A DNA stretch of 44,120 bases from Desulfobacterales bacterium (lineage in GTDB: Bacteria > Desulfobacterota > Desulfobacteria > Desulfobacterales > UBA11574), in NCBI GenBank assembly GCA_030145345.1, contig JAQYVT010000016.1, forward strand, positions 1 through 44,120, written 5' to 3'. The position numbers and the translations under genes were made by a program. Below, one piece after another: positions 3,093 through 20,356 of this stretch (positions are counted from its first letter, which is position 1; each line of letters begins with the position of its first letter). The notes beneath the pieces are model-generated. The model made no database searches and was not told where the DNA came from. It saw only the letters and a list, made by a program, of their open reading frames with translations.

Positions 3093-3190
3093 GGAAGTGC
3101 GCAGCTTACTGGTGAGGCTCCCGGACTTCAAATCCGGTGTGGGGCGCTAAAACCGTCCCGGGTGGGTTCGATTCCCATGCACTTCCGCCA
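3093..3190 (+). tRNA. selC: tRNA-Sec (anticodon UCA)
   Basis: This is the selenocysteine tRNA, which decodes UGA together with SelB and a SECIS element. The acceptor stem is the unusual 8 bp (GGAAGTGC at 3093-3100 with GCACTTCC at 3179-3186), followed by discriminator G and an encoded CCA. The anticodon arm CCGGA-CTTCAAA-TCCGG (3121-3137) puts TCA at 3128-3130. A long variable arm and a normal T arm (GGTTCGATTCC) follow, giving 98 bases in total. A dedicated promoter lies just upstream. selA, selB and selD are not in this window. selC shows that the organism makes selenoproteins. Confidence 0.97.
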
Positions 3191-9615: not shown

Positions 9616-10638
9616 TCAACTGGCCGAGCTGTTTTGGTTCAAATCATCATAAATGCATCGAACCTGGCGGCACATCTTCTCAAATTGATTTGGATAAAGA
9701 GACTGGGCACCATCACTGAGCGCCTCCTCCGGCGCATGATGCACTTCCACCATCAGGCCATGTGCCCCCACGGCAACAGATGCACGGCTCAGAGGGATTA
9801 CCTGATCTCGGCGACCCGCTGCATGACTGGGATCGATAATAATCGGGAGGTGGCTTTCTTTAAGTACAACAGGAACTGCGGAAAGATCCAGCGTATTTCG
9901 GCTGTGATGGGCAAAAGTCCGGACGCCCCTTTCGCACAAAATTACCTGGGAATTTCCAACTTCTAAAATGTATTCGGCCGCCATTAGCCATTCATCGATG
10001 GTTGCAGCCATGCCCCTTTTGAGCAAAACCGGCTTACTGGTCCGACCCGCTCGCCGCAGCAAACTGAAATTCTGCATGTTCCGTGTTCCGATCTGAATGA
10101 CATCGGCATATTCTTCCACCAAATCGAAAGTTTCATAATCCATCACTTCCGTGACCACCGGCATCCCGGTTTTTTCACGAACCTTTGACAATATTTTCAG
10201 TCCGTCTTCCCCAAGCCCCTGAAATGAATACGGCGATGTTCGGGGTTTAAAAGCTCCGCCTCGAAAAAGCTGTGCACCGCTGCTCCGGACGTGCTCGGCA
10301 ATTGTCAAGGCTTGGAATTCACTCTCTATGGCACAGGGTCCGGCGATAAGGGTCAGGCTGCCACTGCCGATAGATATATCACCGATTTTTATTACGGTAT
10401 CTTCAGGTTTAATTTCTCGGCTTACGAGTTTATATGGCCGTGTAACATGGATGGCATCCTTTACCCCCGGCATGCTCAAAAACGGCCCAGCATCAACGTG
10501 CCCTTTGTTGTTCAATATCCCGATGGACACCCTTTCTCCGCCTGGAATCGGACGCGCCGTATACCCTCTCTGTTCAATCGCAGCCACCACGGTATCGATC
10601 TCCGTCTGTTTGGCTTTTTTATCCATAACAATCAGCAT
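9616..10638 (-). CDS. aroF: 3-deoxy-7-phosphoheptulonate synthase (DAHP synthase, type I beta)
   Basis: This enzyme condenses phosphoenolpyruvate and erythrose-4-phosphate, the first step of the shikimate pathway. Residues 1-70 form the N-terminal regulatory domain of the Thermotoga-like form (MLIVMDKKA...IGILNNKG), which usually mediates feedback by aromatic amino acids. The barrel follows with LIAGPCAIES, GGAFKPRTSPYSFQG, IGTRNMQNF, LLKRGM and DPSHAAGRR, which supply substrate and metal ligands. AGGAGG lies six bases before ATG 10638 and only three before GTG 10641, so 10638 is chosen (340 residues). A leader peptide and terminator upstream on the same strand imply attenuation by Trp/Tyr supply. 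Confidence 0.94.
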   Translation of the reverse strand: MLIVMDKKAKQTEIDTVVAAIEQRGYTARPIPGGERVSIGILNNKGHVDAGPFLSMPGVKDAIHVTRPYKLVSREIKPEDTVIKIGDISIGSGSLTLIAGPCAIESEFQALTIAEHVRSSGAQLFRGGAFKPRTSPYSFQGLGEDGLKILSKVREKTGMPVVTEVMDYETFDLVEEYADVIQIGTRNMQNFSLLRRAGRTSKPVLLKRGMAATIDEWLMAAEYILEVGNSQVILCERGVRTFAHHSRNTLDLSAVPVVLKESHLPIIIDPSHAAGRRDQVIPLSRASVAVGAHGLMVEVHHAPEEALSDGAQSLYPNQFEKMCRQVRCIYDDLNQNSSAS

Positions 10639-10696
10639 CACCTGCCTCCTTTGCCCTTGATTGAATTTCCCTGCATTAAGCTACAGAATTCTTTAC

Positions 10697-10733
10697 AAAA
10701 AAAAAGACCGTGAGCTTCAAAGTGCCCACGGTC
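10697..10733 (-). terminator. Attenuator terminator upstream of aroF
   Basis: On the minus strand GACCGTGGGC pairs with GCTCACGGTC, a 10-bp stem with one G-U pair and an 8-base loop, followed directly by nine T residues. It lies between the Trp/Tyr-rich leader peptide and aroF, with no other gene to terminate, so its role must be attenuation of aroF. Confidence 0.88.
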
Positions 10734-10801
10734 CTTCATTATCCGTCATCCTAATGGCTCAAGCAGACTTGAACCGGTCGGCACACTCCATCCTTCCGGT
10801 T
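10729..10801 (-). promoter_or_regulatory. Alternative RNA pairings of the aroF attenuator
   Basis: Three competing segments are visible on the minus strand. AACCGG (10801-10796), directly after the Trp codons, pairs perfectly with CCGGTT (10777-10772). The overlapping CGGTTC (10776-10771) can instead pair, with one G-U pair, with GGACCG (10734-10729), the 5' arm of the terminator. A ribosome stalled on the Trp codons would cover AACCGG, free CCGGTTC to sequester the terminator arm, and allow read-through. This is the classical 1:2 / 2:3 / 3:4 arrangement, inferred by hand pairing without energy calculation. Confidence 0.7.
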
Positions 10802-10848
10802 ATCCACCACCAGTACCAATAATATTTTTGTTTCCTAAAAGTTCCCAT
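10759..10848 (-). CDS. aroF leader peptide with YYWYWWW run
   Basis: This is a 29-residue frame on the minus strand, 120 bp upstream of aroF. Residues 9-15 read Tyr-Tyr-Trp-Tyr-Trp-Trp-Trp, seven consecutive aromatic codons with four Trp, which is not plausible by chance. It ends in TGA 25 bases before the terminator stem. Translation speed through these codons should report charged tRNA-Trp and tRNA-Tyr. The start at ATG 10848 has no strong Shine-Dalgarno sequence. A longer in-frame start at 10890 would begin at or before the predicted transcript start. The product itself probably has no role beyond being translated. Confidence 0.85.
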   Translation of the reverse strand: MGTFRKQKYYWYWWWITGRMECADRFKSA

Positions 10849-10889
10849 CTTTATATTTTTTTTAAACACCCTTTTTTTGGTTAGCATTA

Positions 10890-10919
10890 AAGCTACTGAA
10901 ACAGGCCCGGCCTTGTCAA
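10890..10919 (-). promoter_or_regulatory. Candidate promoter of the aroF leader transcript
   Basis: A perfect TTGACA -35 box (10919-10914, minus strand) is followed after 17-18 bp by a poor -10 region (TAGCTT). The predicted start near 10884 leaves a leader of about 35 bases before the leader peptide. The -35 is convincing; the -10 is not. Confidence 0.45.
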
Positions 10920-11023
10920 GGTTTTTTTCAATGTGTTTTTGCCCAGCCCTATATCGATTTTGCCGGTGAAAAAAAACGATTCCGACTTTCATCCAGGTAT
11001 TTTTTTCAAAGATCTAAAAAATC

Positions 11024-11051
11024 TTGACAAATGCTTTTGATTAAGGATAAG
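11024..11051 (+). promoter_or_regulatory. Candidate promoter of the trp operon
   Basis: A perfect TTGACA at 11024-11029 is followed after 16 bp by GATAAG at 11046-11051. The leader peptide begins 27 bp later. No obvious TrpR-type operator overlaps it. The divergent aroF promoter is about 100 bp away. Confidence 0.6.
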
Positions 11052-11077
11052 TTTAGCAATCGAATCCGGTGAAAAAA

Positions 11078-11173
11078 ATGAATAACAACAGTATCCAAAA
11101 AACATTAAAAAAGGTCGATATAAAATACTGGTGGTGGCAAACCCAAATCAACGGGTCTGCCCCAGGGACTTGA
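11078..11173 (+). CDS. trpL: trp operon leader peptide with YWWW run
   Basis: This 31-residue frame from ATG 11078 to TGA 11171 has Tyr17 followed by Trp18-19-20 (TGG TGG TGG at 11129-11137). A GGTGA ribosome site precedes the start. It lies between a promoter and two consecutive hairpin-plus-T-run structures upstream of trpE, as in classical trp attenuation. TGGTGGCA (11132-11139) can pair with TGCCCCA (11158-11164) with one bulge, so the Trp codons form part of segment 1. TGCCC can alternatively pair with GGGCA (11212-11216) in the next hairpin. The name follows the functional analogy to enterobacterial trpL, not sequence homology. Confidence 0.88.
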   Translation: MNNNSIQKTLKKVDIKYWWWQTQINGSAPGT

Positions 11174-11205
11174 TCAACCGACGTAACCTTAAAAAATCTA
11201 CAAAG

Positions 11206-11239
11206 GACCAAGGGCAACTCAAACCCACGGTCTTTTTTT
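11206..11239 (+). terminator. First attenuator hairpin of trp leader
   Basis: GACC-AA-GGG pairs with CCC-AC-GGTC around a 9-base loop, followed by seven T residues (11233-11239). The stem is imperfect, with a 2x2 internal loop. It closely resembles the aroF attenuator terminator: both begin GACC, share a GGGCA segment, and end CACGGTC plus a T run. Confidence 0.6.
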
Positions 11240-11251
11240 GACTTCGAACAG

Positions 11252-11280
11252 GCCGTGAAATTTTTCACGGCTTTTTTTTT
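11252..11280 (+). terminator. Second attenuator terminator of trp leader
   Basis: GCCGTGAA pairs with TTCACGGC (8 bp, 4-base loop) and is followed by nine T residues (11272-11280), a strong intrinsic terminator. Its 5' arm GGCCGTG (11251-11257) can alternatively pair with CACGGTC (11226-11232), the 3' arm of the preceding hairpin, so the two structures exclude each other. Confidence 0.85.
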
Positions 11281-11288
11281 GCTTTATT

Positions 11289-11432
11289 AGAAGCCATCTC
11301 AAAATAAAGATTTTGGTTCAAGATCAAGGCGGAGCCGAGTTTTAACCCGCAGGCATACTCAAGTATGTCGAGGACTTAAAACGAGGCTCCAACGCCGAGA
11401 TTGGGCCAATAGATTATTTTGAGATAGCTTCT
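11289..11432. repeat. 144-bp palindromic (MITE-like) element in trp leader
   Basis: The two ends AGAAGC...GCTTCT begin an inverted repeat that continues inward almost to the centre: ATCTCAAAATAA against TTATTTTGAGAT, GGAGCC against GGCTCC, GTTTTAA against TTAAAAC, closing at CATAC-TCAA-GTATG. It can form one very long hairpin. There is no coding capacity. It ends one base before the AAAGGA ribosome site of trpE, so it is part of the trp mRNA leader. Similar long palindromes recur in Desulfobacterota genomes from memory; no second copy is in this window. Confidence 0.8.
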
Positions 11433-11446
11433 AGAAAGGAACATCC

Positions 11447-12952
11447 ATGCTGATCAATGAATTCCCCGACATAGATGAATTTCGAAACCTAGCAGAACAG
11501 GCCAATGTCATTCCGGTTTGTATGGAGATGTTGGCCGACACGGAAACTCCGGTATCCCTCTTGAGAAAAATCTATAAAAACAACACCTCCGTCTTTTTGT
11601 TTGAAAGCGTTGAGGGCGGTGAACGATGGGGAAGATATAGTTTTTTAGGCGTCTCTGCAAGAACGCATATCCGAATATTCCCACAATTTGTAGAAGTCTG
11701 TGAAAACGGTTCTCCCAGGCAGATTCCCCACAACGGGGATCCCCTCGCTGTTTTGAGAATATTGATGAATCGTTATCAACCGGCACAAGTTCCCGGGCTA
11801 CCAAGATTTTGGGGAGGAATGGTGGGGTATTTAACCTATGAAATGGTGTCCTTTTTTGAATCGATCCCCAACCTTTTGCCGGAGAACAAACCCCTGGCCC
11901 ATTTCATCATTCCGGATGAACTGCTTATATTCGACAATATCCGGCATACATTACTCTTGGTTGTTATCTCCTTTCTGGAAAGCGCGCAGAATCCAGATGC
12001 GGCGTTTCATCGGGCAACTGACCGTCTCAAATCTTTACTGGGTGAAATGGAACAGCATGTGCCGGTAGACGATATCTATCCGGATGACGTTGAATTTGTG
12101 TTGCAAGCACCATGGGCGGAAAATGATTTTCGATCCCTTGTTAAACAGGTTAAGGACTATATCCGGGCCGGCGATGTCATACAGACCGTCATCTCCAAGC
12201 CATTTACCTGTGCCTTCCCGCCCGATCCGTGGACACTCTATCGGGCCCAGAGATTCATCAACCCTTCCCCCTACCTCTACTTTCTCGGTCTGGAAGAGAT
12301 GACCCTCGTGGGCTCCTCCCCGGAAACGATGGTCCACTTGGAAAACGGCGTTGCCACCCTTCGGCCCATTGCCGGAACCCGGCCGAGGGGCAAGAACGAA
12401 CAGGAAGACAGATCTCTGGCCAATGAACTCCTTGCCGACGAGAAAGAACGGGCCGAACACTTGATGCTGGTGGATTTGGGACGTAATGATCTGGGGCGCA
12501 TTGCAGAGGTGGGAACCGTTCAGGTCACCGATTTGATGGTTGTCGAACGCTATTCCCACGTCATGCACCTGGTTTCAAATATCTGCTGCGACCTGGAATC
12601 CGATTACGATGCCTGGGACCTGCTTCGGGCGACCTATCCTGCCGGAACTTTGTCCGGAGCACCTAAAATAAGGGCCATGGAGATTATCGCGGAACTAGAA
12701 CAAATCCCCAGAGGCCCTTACGGCGGTGCTGTGGGGTATATTTCGTTTCATGGAAACATGGACATGGCCATTACCATTCGGACCGCAAGCATTGAGAACG
12801 GAACACTAACGGTACAGGCCGGCGCCGGCATTGTTGCCGATTCTGATCCCGAGAGCGAACGAAAGGAGACCGTCAATAAAGCCATGGCCATGCAAAAAGC
12901 ACTGCAGTTGGTTCAAAAAGAATACAGCTCAAATATTTCCGGAAAAACATGA
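11447..12952 (+). CDS. trpE: Anthranilate synthase component I
   Basis: TrpE converts chorismate to anthranilate using ammonia delivered by TrpG. At 501 residues it is of normal length. The N-terminal LFES motif near residue 50 matches the tryptophan-binding LLES feedback site. The C-terminal chorismate-binding domain has PSPYLYFLG, GSSPETMV, IAGTRPRGK, the DLGRNDLGR block, HVMHLVSN, PAGTLSGAPKIRAMEII and IVADSDPE, all conserved in active TrpE. AAAGGA lies seven bases before ATG. It is first in the trpEGDCF-fabF run, after the attenuator and a palindromic element. Confidence 0.96.
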   Translation: MLINEFPDIDEFRNLAEQANVIPVCMEMLADTETPVSLLRKIYKNNTSVFLFESVEGGERWGRYSFLGVSARTHIRIFPQFVEVCENGSPRQIPHNGDPLAVLRILMNRYQPAQVPGLPRFWGGMVGYLTYEMVSFFESIPNLLPENKPLAHFIIPDELLIFDNIRHTLLLVVISFLESAQNPDAAFHRATDRLKSLLGEMEQHVPVDDIYPDDVEFVLQAPWAENDFRSLVKQVKDYIRAGDVIQTVISKPFTCAFPPDPWTLYRAQRFINPSPYLYFLGLEEMTLVGSSPETMVHLENGVATLRPIAGTRPRGKNEQEDRSLANELLADEKERAEHLMLVDLGRNDLGRIAEVGTVQVTDLMVVERYSHVMHLVSNICCDLESDYDAWDLLRATYPAGTLSGAPKIRAMEIIAELEQIPRGPYGGAVGYISFHGNMDMAITIRTASIENGTLTVQAGAGIVADSDPESERKETVNKAMAMQKALQLVQKEYSSNISGKT

Positions 12953-17651: not shown

Positions 17652-18413
17652 TTATCTCAGGGTTTTAATAAACGCCTCAACAGCACCCACCCCTTCTTTA
17701 TCCACCAGCCGGATGGTCTCGGACCCAATGACGGCAATGTCGGCTTTCCCTTTTAAAAAATCGATATCCGCCCGCTCTTTGACCCCGAAACCGAGGGCCA
17801 AGGGAAGGTCGGTCGCCTTTCGGCATCGCACAAGATAATTTTCCAGTTGTCTGGAAAAATCCGTATCCACACCGGTAACCCCTTTTCTGGCCACACAATA
17901 GATAAACCCTCTTCCAAAGGCGCCAAGGTAGTTCATGCGTTCATCGGATGTTGAGGGAGAAAATATCAAGATCGGAGAAAGACGGTGTTTATCCATGGCC
18001 TCAAGATAATCCTTCCCTTCTTCAGGGGGAAGATCCGGGACAATGGCCCCCTGAAGACCGTTTTCGGCCATGGTGTCGACAAATCTCTCAACGCCGTATT
18101 TAAAAAGAATATTGTAGTAACTCATGAATAGAAAGGGAATCTCGAAGGTTTCAGCAACGGTTTTCGCAAAATCGACGCATTTTTTAACCGTTGCACCCTT
18201 GGCCAGCGCTTTTTGATTGGCATGCAGAATCACAGGGCCGTCTGCAATCGGTTCTGAAAAAGGGATCTGCAGCTCCATCAGATCAACACCGGCGTTGACC
18301 ATGGACTCAATGATCTTGAAAGCATCCTCGAAGGTTGGATATCCAAGGACGATATGGGTCATTAACAAGATCTCTTTTTGCTTCAGCCGGTTATCTAAGT
18401 ACGATTCAAGCAT
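17652..18413 (-). CDS. trpA: Tryptophan synthase alpha chain
   Basis: TrpA cleaves indole-3-glycerol phosphate to indole, which passes to TrpB. The start is taken at ATG 18413 (MLESYLDNRLKQ), overlapping the trpB stop by 8 bp, giving 253 residues. The upstream extension runs inside trpB and has no family match. The catalytic Glu and Asp lie in MELQIPFSEPIADGP near residues 50-60. This differs from the usual ELGVPFSDPxADGP by Gln for Gly and Glu for Asp, but keeps both catalytic residues. PDLPPEE and the phosphate-site GFGVK are present. It faces the end of fabF. Confidence 0.93.
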   Translation of the reverse strand: MLESYLDNRLKQKEILLMTHIVLGYPTFEDAFKIIESMVNAGVDLMELQIPFSEPIADGPVILHANQKALAKGATVKKCVDFAKTVAETFEIPFLFMSYYNILFKYGVERFVDTMAENGLQGAIVPDLPPEEGKDYLEAMDKHRLSPILIFSPSTSDERMNYLGAFGRGFIYCVARKGVTGVDTDFSRQLENYLVRCRKATDLPLALGFGVKERADIDFLKGKADIAVIGSETIRLVDKEGVGAVEAFIKTLR

Positions 18414-19632
18414 GATACCCCTCCGCTTTCTCTTTGATAAATGCCTGCCACTTGGGATCTGCAAATGCATCGGCAATGGTAAAGATGTCTTTGTCTCCTC
18501 GACCGGACTGGTTTATCAGAATAATATCCTTCGGGGTCATGGCCGGCGCCTCTTTTAACGCCTGTGCAAACGCGTGGGCGGATTCCAGGGCGGGGATCAA
18601 TCCCTCTTTTTGAATGGTCAGGGACAGGGCATCCATAACCTCCCGATCGGTTGCGGCTTCAAATCGAATTCGGCCGGTTTCTGCATATTGGGCCAGAATC
18701 GGTGAAACCCCGACATAATCCAGCCCGGCTGCGACACTATGGGTCTCTCGCATCTGCCCGTCATTATCCTGGAGAAAATATGTCTTATACCCCTGGGCGA
18801 CCCCGACGCTCGCATCTTTGGAAGAAAGTCGGGAAGCATGCCGGCCGGTCTCCAGTCCTTCTCCACCGGCCTCGACGCCCACAAGGTCAACCGGATCATC
18901 CAGAAACGCATTAAAGATCCCCAATGCATTGGACCCGCCGCCAACACAGGCATAAATTCGGTCAGGGAGCCCACCCGCTTGGTCAAGGATCTGTTTCCGA
19001 GCCTCCTGTCCGATAATCGATTGGAAATAAGAGACCATTTCCGGAAACGGATGGGGGCCGCAGGCCGTTCCCAAGACATAATGCGTGGTATCCATGTGGG
19101 TCACCCAGTCCCGAAAAGATTCATTGATGGCATCTTTTAAAATTCGGGTTCCTTCGGTTACGGTGATGACTTCAGCACCCAGTCTCTCCATCCAGAATAC
19201 ATTGGGACGCTGCCGCTGAACATCCACCTCTCCCATATAGATGGTACATTTGAATCCAAACCGTGCGGCCATGGTGGCGGTGGCCACGCCGTGCTGTCCG
19301 GCACCGGTCTCTGCGATGACCCGCGTCTTTCCCATCCGTTTCACCAGAAGGCCCTGCCCAATAACGTTATTGGCCTTGTGGGCGCCGGTATGGTTAAGGT
19401 CTTCTCTTTTAACATAAATGCGCGCACCGCCGAAATGCCGCGTCAGGTTTTGGGCAAAGGTAATCGGCGTCGGGCGGCAGGAATAGGTGGACATTATGTC
19501 GACATACTCCTCCCAGAACCCGGGGTCGTTTTTTGCCGTTTGGAATATTTCCACAAGTTCGTCGAATGTAGAAACAAGCATCTCGGGAAGATAGGCACCC
19601 CCGAATTTTTTATAATACCCTCTATCTTTCAT
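18406..19632 (-). CDS. trpB: Tryptophan synthase beta chain
   Basis: TrpB is the PLP enzyme joining indole and serine. The start is ATG 19632 (MKDRGYYKKFGGAYLPE), with GGGAGGA eight bases upstream, overlapping the preceding regulator gene by 11 bp. That gives 408 residues. The PLP lysine is in HTGAHKANN, and ETGAGQHGVATA, GGGSNALG and NQSGRGDKD complete the active site. It is the TrpB1 type expected to pair with TrpA, not the stand-alone TrpB2. The unit reads regulator-trpB-trpA, separate from trpEGDCF. Confidence 0.95.
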   Translation of the reverse strand: MKDRGYYKKFGGAYLPEMLVSTFDELVEIFQTAKNDPGFWEEYVDIMSTYSCRPTPITFAQNLTRHFGGARIYVKREDLNHTGAHKANNVIGQGLLVKRMGKTRVIAETGAGQHGVATATMAARFGFKCTIYMGEVDVQRQRPNVFWMERLGAEVITVTEGTRILKDAINESFRDWVTHMDTTHYVLGTACGPHPFPEMVSYFQSIIGQEARKQILDQAGGLPDRIYACVGGGSNALGIFNAFLDDPVDLVGVEAGGEGLETGRHASRLSSKDASVGVAQGYKTYFLQDNDGQMRETHSVAAGLDYVGVSPILAQYAETGRIRFEAATDREVMDALSLTIQKEGLIPALESAHAFAQALKEAPAMTPKDIILINQSGRGDKDIFTIADAFADPKWQAFIKEKAEGYHA

Positions 19633-20356
19633 TATCCATTCCTCCCAATGTCTGTGAAAAAACGAACTGATCTGTTCGACAATAAAGCTCTGAATAAATG
19701 GCGTTTTTTGCCAGATCAAAGTGCAAAAAACGCTTCACCGTAAGAACCGGTGTATCTGCCGCAACCTCCAAATTTTGTGCCTTTTTTCCGGTTAAGTGAC
19801 CGATTCTGAAGTTCTGCACACCCCCGATGGGTTGCATGTAATATTGCTCCGCCACAATCTGTGCCAAAGATCTTTGGGAGAGGTCCATATGGTCTATCCC
19901 TGTAAAAATTGTTTCATGCAGATAAATATCCTCGATGAGGACCGGTATTTTTTCAACTTTGCTCAGCCTGGAAAAAAAATAGGCTTTCTGATTGGAAAAA
20001 GGGTTTTCCGGATCATATCCGATGGATTTCAGTCGGATCTTTTTCAGGATATGGGTGGTCACCGACATCCCTTTTTTATGAAAAGCCGAAGTCGTTCCGG
20101 CCAGAGAAAAAAGATCGAGCTCTTTCTGCGGTTCACATACAAAGGTTCCTGAGCCCCGCTTTCGCATCAGCAGACCTTTTCGAACCAGAAGATCCGTAGC
20201 CTGCCTGGCGGTGGGCCTTCCGATACCGTATCCGGAGGCCAGGCTGTTTTCCGACGGAATCCTTGAACCGTCTGGATATTCTCCGGATCGTATTTTGGCC
20301 AGAATGATGTCCGCCAGCTGATGATATAAGGGAATCGGAGAGTTTATATTCAGCAT
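19622..20356 (-). CDS. GntR-family regulator (HutC/UTRA type) overlapping trpB
   Basis: This 244-residue DNA-binding protein has an N-terminal winged helix (residues about 8-75, with IPSENSLASGYGIGRPTARQATDLL as the recognition region and KRGSGTFV as the wing) and a C-terminal UTRA effector domain (about 95-240). Its end overlaps trpB by 11 bp, so it is co-transcribed and probably translationally coupled to trpBA. That suggests it controls this unit in response to a small ligand, perhaps an aromatic compound or intermediate, but the ligand cannot be read from the sequence. A palindrome overlapping a TTGACA box lies 30 bp upstream. Confidence 0.88.
   Translation of the reverse strand: MLNINSPIPLYHQLADIILAKIRSGEYPDGSRIPSENSLASGYGIGRPTARQATDLLVRKGLLMRKRGSGTFVCEPQKELDLFSLAGTTSAFHKKGMSVTTHILKKIRLKSIGYDPENPFSNQKAYFFSRLSKVEKIPVLIEDIYLHETIFTGIDHMDLSQRSLAQIVAEQYYMQPIGGVQNFRIGHLTGKKAQNLEVAADTPVLTVKRFLHFDLAKNAIYSELYCRTDQFVFSQTLGGMDNER

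Follow-up and report, generated by a model that had tools for sequence, protein, structure and literature searches.

In this Desulfobacterales genome, aroF (minus strand) and trpE (plus strand) are separated by a spacer that encodes two divergent leader peptides, MGTFRKQKYYWYWWWITGRMECADRFKSA and MNNNSIQKTLKKVDIKYWWWQTQINGSAPGT, and the second of these is followed by two terminators (T1 and T2) that are separate, conserved, and complementary to one another. We propose a six-arm attenuator of the Desulfobacterales, in which one stalled ribosome would flip two serial terminators (pairing of arms 2:3, then of arms 4:5) at trp, at aroF in some genera, and at a Phe-controlled DAHP synthase fusion; we estimate the probability of this reading at roughly 60%. 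For the genome at hand, we consider it quite probable that the spacer contains two divergent attenuators, that T2 of the trp leader is disarmed through 4:5 pairing, and that a third, Phe-reading attenuator precedes the fusion gene. The support for the attenuators and for the domino step described below comes from sequence and thermodynamics. An earlier interpretation of the same DNA (the sequence-only reading) had pointed out the twin leaders and missed the interlocked tandem trp terminators, which are the more unusual feature, together with a palindrome at 11284-11434.

Two divergent leaders in one spacer

The two leaders lie in the window (the whole stretch of 44,120 nucleotides that was analysed) between aroF (9616-10641, minus strand), which encodes a DAHP synthase of 341 amino acids of the PRK08673/DAHP_synth_Bsub type (NCBIfam NF006421, E = 2e-149, and TIGR01361, E = 1.6e-120, both exceeding the cut-off), and trpE (11447-12952, plus strand), which encodes anthranilate synthase component I and opens trpEGDCF. 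The best E value for trpE against the NCBIfam trpE models is 1e-154, a match that falls short of the strict equivalog cut-offs of those models. Among the plus-strand trp genes, E, D, and F were assigned by profile search, and G and C by reading the open reading frames (ORFs). Genes trpB and trpA (17652-20356 of the window) are separated from trpEGDCF by fabF; they are on the opposite strand, and a GntR-family regulator gene lies immediately upstream of them. A selenocysteine tRNA gene is found at 3093-3186 (Rfam RF01852).

The aroF leader peptide is encoded on the minus strand at 10759-10848 (ATG at 10848, stop ending at 10759), and its putative stall codons are a run of seven, YYWYWWW (three Tyr and four Trp; 10804-10824, first Tyr at 10824). 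The trp leader peptide is encoded on the plus strand at 11078-11173 (ATG at 11078, stop ending at 11173), with the run YWWW at 11126-11137. Both were read directly from the sequence and both are kept in relatives. A scan for Trp/Tyr clustering covered the ORFs of 10-60 amino acids on either strand throughout the window, and in it the aroF leader ranked first and the trp leader fell within the top four; first-order random sequence yields 0.4 ORFs per 44 kb at the score of the trp leader, and we regard the conservation of both leaders as a stronger argument than this chance score. An Rfam search of the window, with a permissive run on the spacer, returned no relevant family, and within the spacer neither the RF00513 Trp_leader covariance model (at the gathering threshold or at E up to 5) nor the T-box covariance model had a match. 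Because the two leaders match no Rfam model, annotation pipelines would miss both. A sigma-70 scan of 10300-11700 gave zero sites above threshold; TTGACA boxes can be seen by eye upstream of both leaders, and relatives again have TTGACA ahead of the aroF leader. A search of a plasmid collection gave no match.

Each leader is followed by the elements expected of an attenuator. In the aroF leader, region 2 (codons A-D-R-F-K; 10766-10783, minus strand) is the predicted antiterminator arm: in a starved-state fold, in which the stretch under a ribosome that has the first Trp codon in its A site is masked and arm 4 has yet to be made, UGCC/AC/GGUUC (10783-10771) pairs with GGACC/GU/GGCA (10734-10723) at -19.5 kcal/mol. 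The aroF leader of the window carries a single terminator (arms 3:4; 10702-10737, minus strand; -22.0 kcal/mol), found by the terminator scan, with a T run to about 10693. In the trp leader, region 2 (codons G-S-A-P-G-T; 11153-11171, plus strand) is likewise the predicted antiterminator arm, and in the starved-state fold before arm 4 its GGGU/UGCCC/GG/CUU pairs with AAG/CC/GGGCA/ACUC at -18.1 kcal/mol. T1 (arms 3:4; 11202-11236, plus strand) has a stability of -10.7 kcal/mol, compared with a mean of about -19 among relatives; it is weak in the genus of the window because of an internal loop. T2 (arms 5:6; 11250-11273, plus strand; -13.2 kcal/mol), also found by the terminator scan, is followed by a T run to about 11280. 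The divergent ORFs, codon runs, T runs, alternative hairpins, and intrinsic terminators that the sequence-only reading had placed here are thus all borne out by direct reading, by the starved-state folds, and by the terminator scan. The palindrome, which lies between T2 and trpE and outside the switch, is a MITE-like element of about 150 bp with no assigned strand (inverted ends AGAAGC.ATCTCAAAATA...TATTTTGAGATAGCTTCT); nine further copies in the same genome have 94-99% identity, and in congeners its site holds a longer form in one (G002) and is empty in two (G001 and G003).

The best reading of both leaders is as ribosome-mediated attenuators of the classical kind. Attenuation of trp operons is textbook knowledge, as are ribosome stalling and the choice between 2:3 and 3:4. 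When charged Trp tRNA (for aroF, also charged Tyr tRNA) is available, the ribosome would reach the leader stop and cover region 2, and the terminator hairpin would form. If charged tRNA runs low, stalling at the Trp/Tyr codons would place the ribosome over region 1, leaving 2:3 to pair, and RNA polymerase would continue into aroF or trpEGDCF.

Leaders and gene order among relatives

We compared the regions upstream of trpE and aroF in relatives of the same order and in named genome records, the closer of which are Desulfobacterales throughout. Trp-run leaders are present upstream of 54 of the 71 trpE genes and 34 of the 51 aroF genes examined (counts that include several upstream stretches ended by contig edges), so that the leader frames recur well outside the window and the claim that aroF has an aromatic-codon leader of its own is supported; some genomes have no recognisable leader or a single hairpin only. 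All 34 aroF runs contain Trp, 19 contain Tyr, 20 contain Phe, and seven contain neither of the latter two. The absence of Phe from the aroF run, to which the sequence-only reading had drawn attention, is therefore a feature of the genus of the window rather than of the family. Peptide segments that follow the run are kept as well (ADRF in aroF; GSAxGT or GFADG in trp), presumably because these residues encode RNA region 2.

Of the 15 family genomes with aroF and trpE on the same contig, 14 have the two genes as divergent neighbours, and so do four genomes of other families. Elsewhere aroF stands alone with its own leader. In Desulfatibacillum alkenivorans (L135, L166), Desulfacinum (L173), and a member of the Syntrophobacteraceae (L189), aroF precedes trpE in the same orientation and one Trp leader with tandem terminators serves both, the pair forming one operon in the first two. 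The back-to-back pairing that had been proposed to link pathway entry with branch control is thus a conserved local layout, and is not required. Trp-run leaders, mostly with one terminator, also occur before trpE in records labelled Fibrobacteres, Phycisphaerales, Kiritimatiellota, Lentisphaeria, and a rumen bacterium (L183, L188, L192, L195, and L197). As a further case, ilvB had a leader in one of six upstream regions, with a single terminator: in a relative of the same family (L277), an Ile/Leu/Val-rich leader, MKTIAAINNLISLIIILVVVL..., lies some 228 bases ahead of the ilvB match.

The genome encodes a second DAHP synthase which, from a reading of its translation, is fused to prephenate dehydratase; its gene starts at base 23127 of contig C113 (minus strand; L129). 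It is preceded by a leader, MNKHSISKIQKIFGRFFFSFRSVHPDR, with the Phe run FGRFFFSF and then two terminators (CCCCGGATGG...TCCGGGG and GCCCCGGG...CTCGGGGC), which are unrelated in sequence to the trp ones and can form a 4:5 helix of 8-9 bp (CCGGGG/CCCCGG). The Phe leader and its tandem layout recur in the order, the hairpin pair being present in 26 genomes; covariation of 4:5 in these leaders is marginal (69 of 5000), the sequences being too alike for a strong test. These leaders suggest a division of labour in which one DAHP synthase would respond to Trp together with Tyr or Phe, and its counterpart to Phe. A possible association between Phe in the aroF run and a missing Phe leader on the second DAHP synthase is a hint only.

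Two complementary terminators in the trp leader

Across the order, trp leaders mostly carry two hairpins separated by a short U-rich linker, typically GGACCGTGGGC...GCCCACGGTCC for T1 (arms 3:4) and GGGCCGTGG...CCACGGCCC for T2 (arms 5:6), with the core CCGTGG/CCACGG common to both. The covarying stems that the sequence-only reading had looked to relatives for are present: over T1 and T2 together 97.5% of cells are paired, and 17 of 22 pairs have changed on both sides (0 of 500 shuffles). In trp leaders the pairs formed by a genome's own regions 2 and 3 beat swapped ones (0 of 5000). Fourteen aroF leaders of relatives share the tandem-terminator layout, and in these the same comparison was not significant (1803 of 5000).

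T2 directly precedes trpE in most genomes, and starvation must therefore somehow overcome it. A candidate route is the complementarity of arm 4 to arm 5. In the window, the arm 4 stretch CACGGUCU (11226-11233, plus strand) pairs with 11250-11257 in the nascent fold, at -13.4 kcal/mol. Among 47 diverse aligned sequences, which are related and hence not independent, 95.7% of 4:5 cells are paired and 34 cells are doubly changed, compared with 7.3 +/- 2.2 in shuffles (0 of 500), while the control pairing 3:6 reaches 79.1%. In a set of 58 trp leaders, subject to the same non-independence, 4:5 is paired in 92.8% of cells, equal to 5:6, and 3:6 in 75.4%; row shuffles reached the 4:5 value in 0 of 2000 trials and the 3:6 value in 726 of 2000. 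The 3:6 control has a small signal of its own. Pairing of 4:5 is 97.6% on the transcribed strand and 75.4% on the antisense strand, a specificity that arises because the helix uses G-U pairs. The complementarity is also kept in lineages with another core (GCAGCC/GGCTGC in relatives of Desulfobacula). Taken by themselves, the 14 aroF leaders give a weak 4:5 signal (181 of 2000 and 56 of 5000). Across 696 kb of loci, tandem terminator pairs were nearly all leaders or their reverse strand, and so offered no useful non-leader null set.

From this anatomy, conservation, and covariation we infer how stalling, termination, and a 4:5 step may be joined. In the starved state, 2:3 would occupy region 3, leaving arm 4 free to capture arm 5 as it emerges; 4:5 pairing would then delay 5:6, so that T2 would not form in time. 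The Trp-replete leader would thus adopt 3:4 and 5:6, two serial stops with low leak, and the Trp-starved leader 2:3 and 4:5, with both terminators open. At equilibrium 5:6 is favoured over the 4:5 hairpin (mean stability -18.9 compared with -12.7), the full-length fold of the trp leader in the window shows T2, and in starved-state folds through T1 the terminator helices win, with 3:4 persisting in most genomes. Any effect of 4:5 must therefore be kinetic and cotranscriptional, as is also the case for 2:3.

Back-up terminators are common, and the two leaders may be ordinary attenuators in which T2 is such a back-up that resembles T1 and has no functional 4:5 pairing. We consider this unlikely, although more probable than the alternatives below. 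In its favour, 5:6 is the thermodynamically favoured helix, and the core that occurs in both hairpins supplies some cross-complementarity for free. Similarity alone would nevertheless make 3:6 equal to 4:5, which is not what the 47 sequences show, and would not account for a 4:5 helix that covaries and is strand-specific; moreover, an unregulated T2 before trpE would hold the operon largely off in starvation. The proposed 4:5 step would explain how a strong T2 can stand before trpE without lasting shutdown of the operon, and would account for the covariation of arms 4 and 5.

The resemblance of T1 to T2 within many genomes raises a second alternative, that 4:5 complementarity is a by-product of duplication of, or gene conversion between, the two hairpins. 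Such a process would keep 3:6 as well as 4:5, but a conserved A-U pair in T1 lies opposite a G-C pair in T2, with the result that 3:6 is mismatched there in 38 of the 47 sequences while 4:5 pairs as U-G. The asymmetry between 4:5 and 3:6 comes partly from this column, yet columns 43/83, 46/80, and 49/77 of 4:5 covary too, and we regard the by-product explanation as improbable. The 4:5 step would itself explain the column, in that the U of arm 4 can pair with both partners while 3:6 is broken. Finally, it is very improbable that the conserved hairpins work at some level other than attenuation (through mRNA stability, Rho, or protein binding) and that the leader ORFs are incidental, for although the leaders are known here from sequence, aromatic runs are kept in three separate leaders and each matches the product of the gene behind it (Trp in the trp leader, Trp together with Tyr or Phe in the aroF leader, and Phe in that of the fusion).

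Known attenuators and control of pathway entry

The trp leader shares with the trpL-type attenuator of E. coli and other bacteria (RF00513) a short leader with a Trp run, the 1:2, 2:3, and 3:4 hairpins, and a terminator before trpE; it differs in its lack of a match to the Rfam model, its two serial terminators, and its conserved 4:5 helix. The aroF leader has its own precedent. Attenuation of both trp and DAHP synthase is known in Corynebacterium glutamicum, through trpL and aroR (PMC4046766, PMC11802643), and the aroR leader has a Phe-Tyr-Phe run and answers to Phe (PMC4046766; PMC11802643, citing Neshat 2014). The two systems have in common leader-peptide attenuation of a DAHP synthase gene and mixed aromatic codons, whereas in the Desulfobacterales Trp dominates the aroF leaders, accompanied by Tyr or Phe, and aroF and trpE often diverge from each other.

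The leader of Salmonella mgtCBR likewise contains two attenuation elements, but in these tandem attenuators two ORFs respond to two signals and act independently, with no intrinsic terminators (PMC3641672). In the trp leader, by contrast, a single ORF precedes two terminators with shared arms, and each transcript here has one aromatic leader ORF in place of two sensor ORFs for separate signals. Attenuator regions with two intrinsic terminators are those of erm(K), where they are adjacent (mentioned in PMC4335068), and of the rimP leader, where they are in tandem (PMC2965389); these respond to other signals, and the passing mentions in those papers do not refer to pairing of the 4:5 type. The searched text of a study of delta-proteobacteria (Rodionov 2004, PMC545781) does not contain leader peptide, tryptophan, DAHP, or aroF. 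A search of the open-access literature, outside which most subscription papers lie, yielded no account of interlocked terminators that follow a single amino acid leader, or of these leaders in Desulfobacterota, and we provisionally regard the interlocked terminators as novel.

If the proposed mechanism is correct, the position of one ribosome would govern two terminators by way of a conserved helix chain, which would make this a new attenuator architecture, and the purpose of the interlock would be to lower leak while retaining induction. The leaders would also give a picture of how control of entry into the shikimate pathway is split in a large and little-studied order of sulfate reducers.
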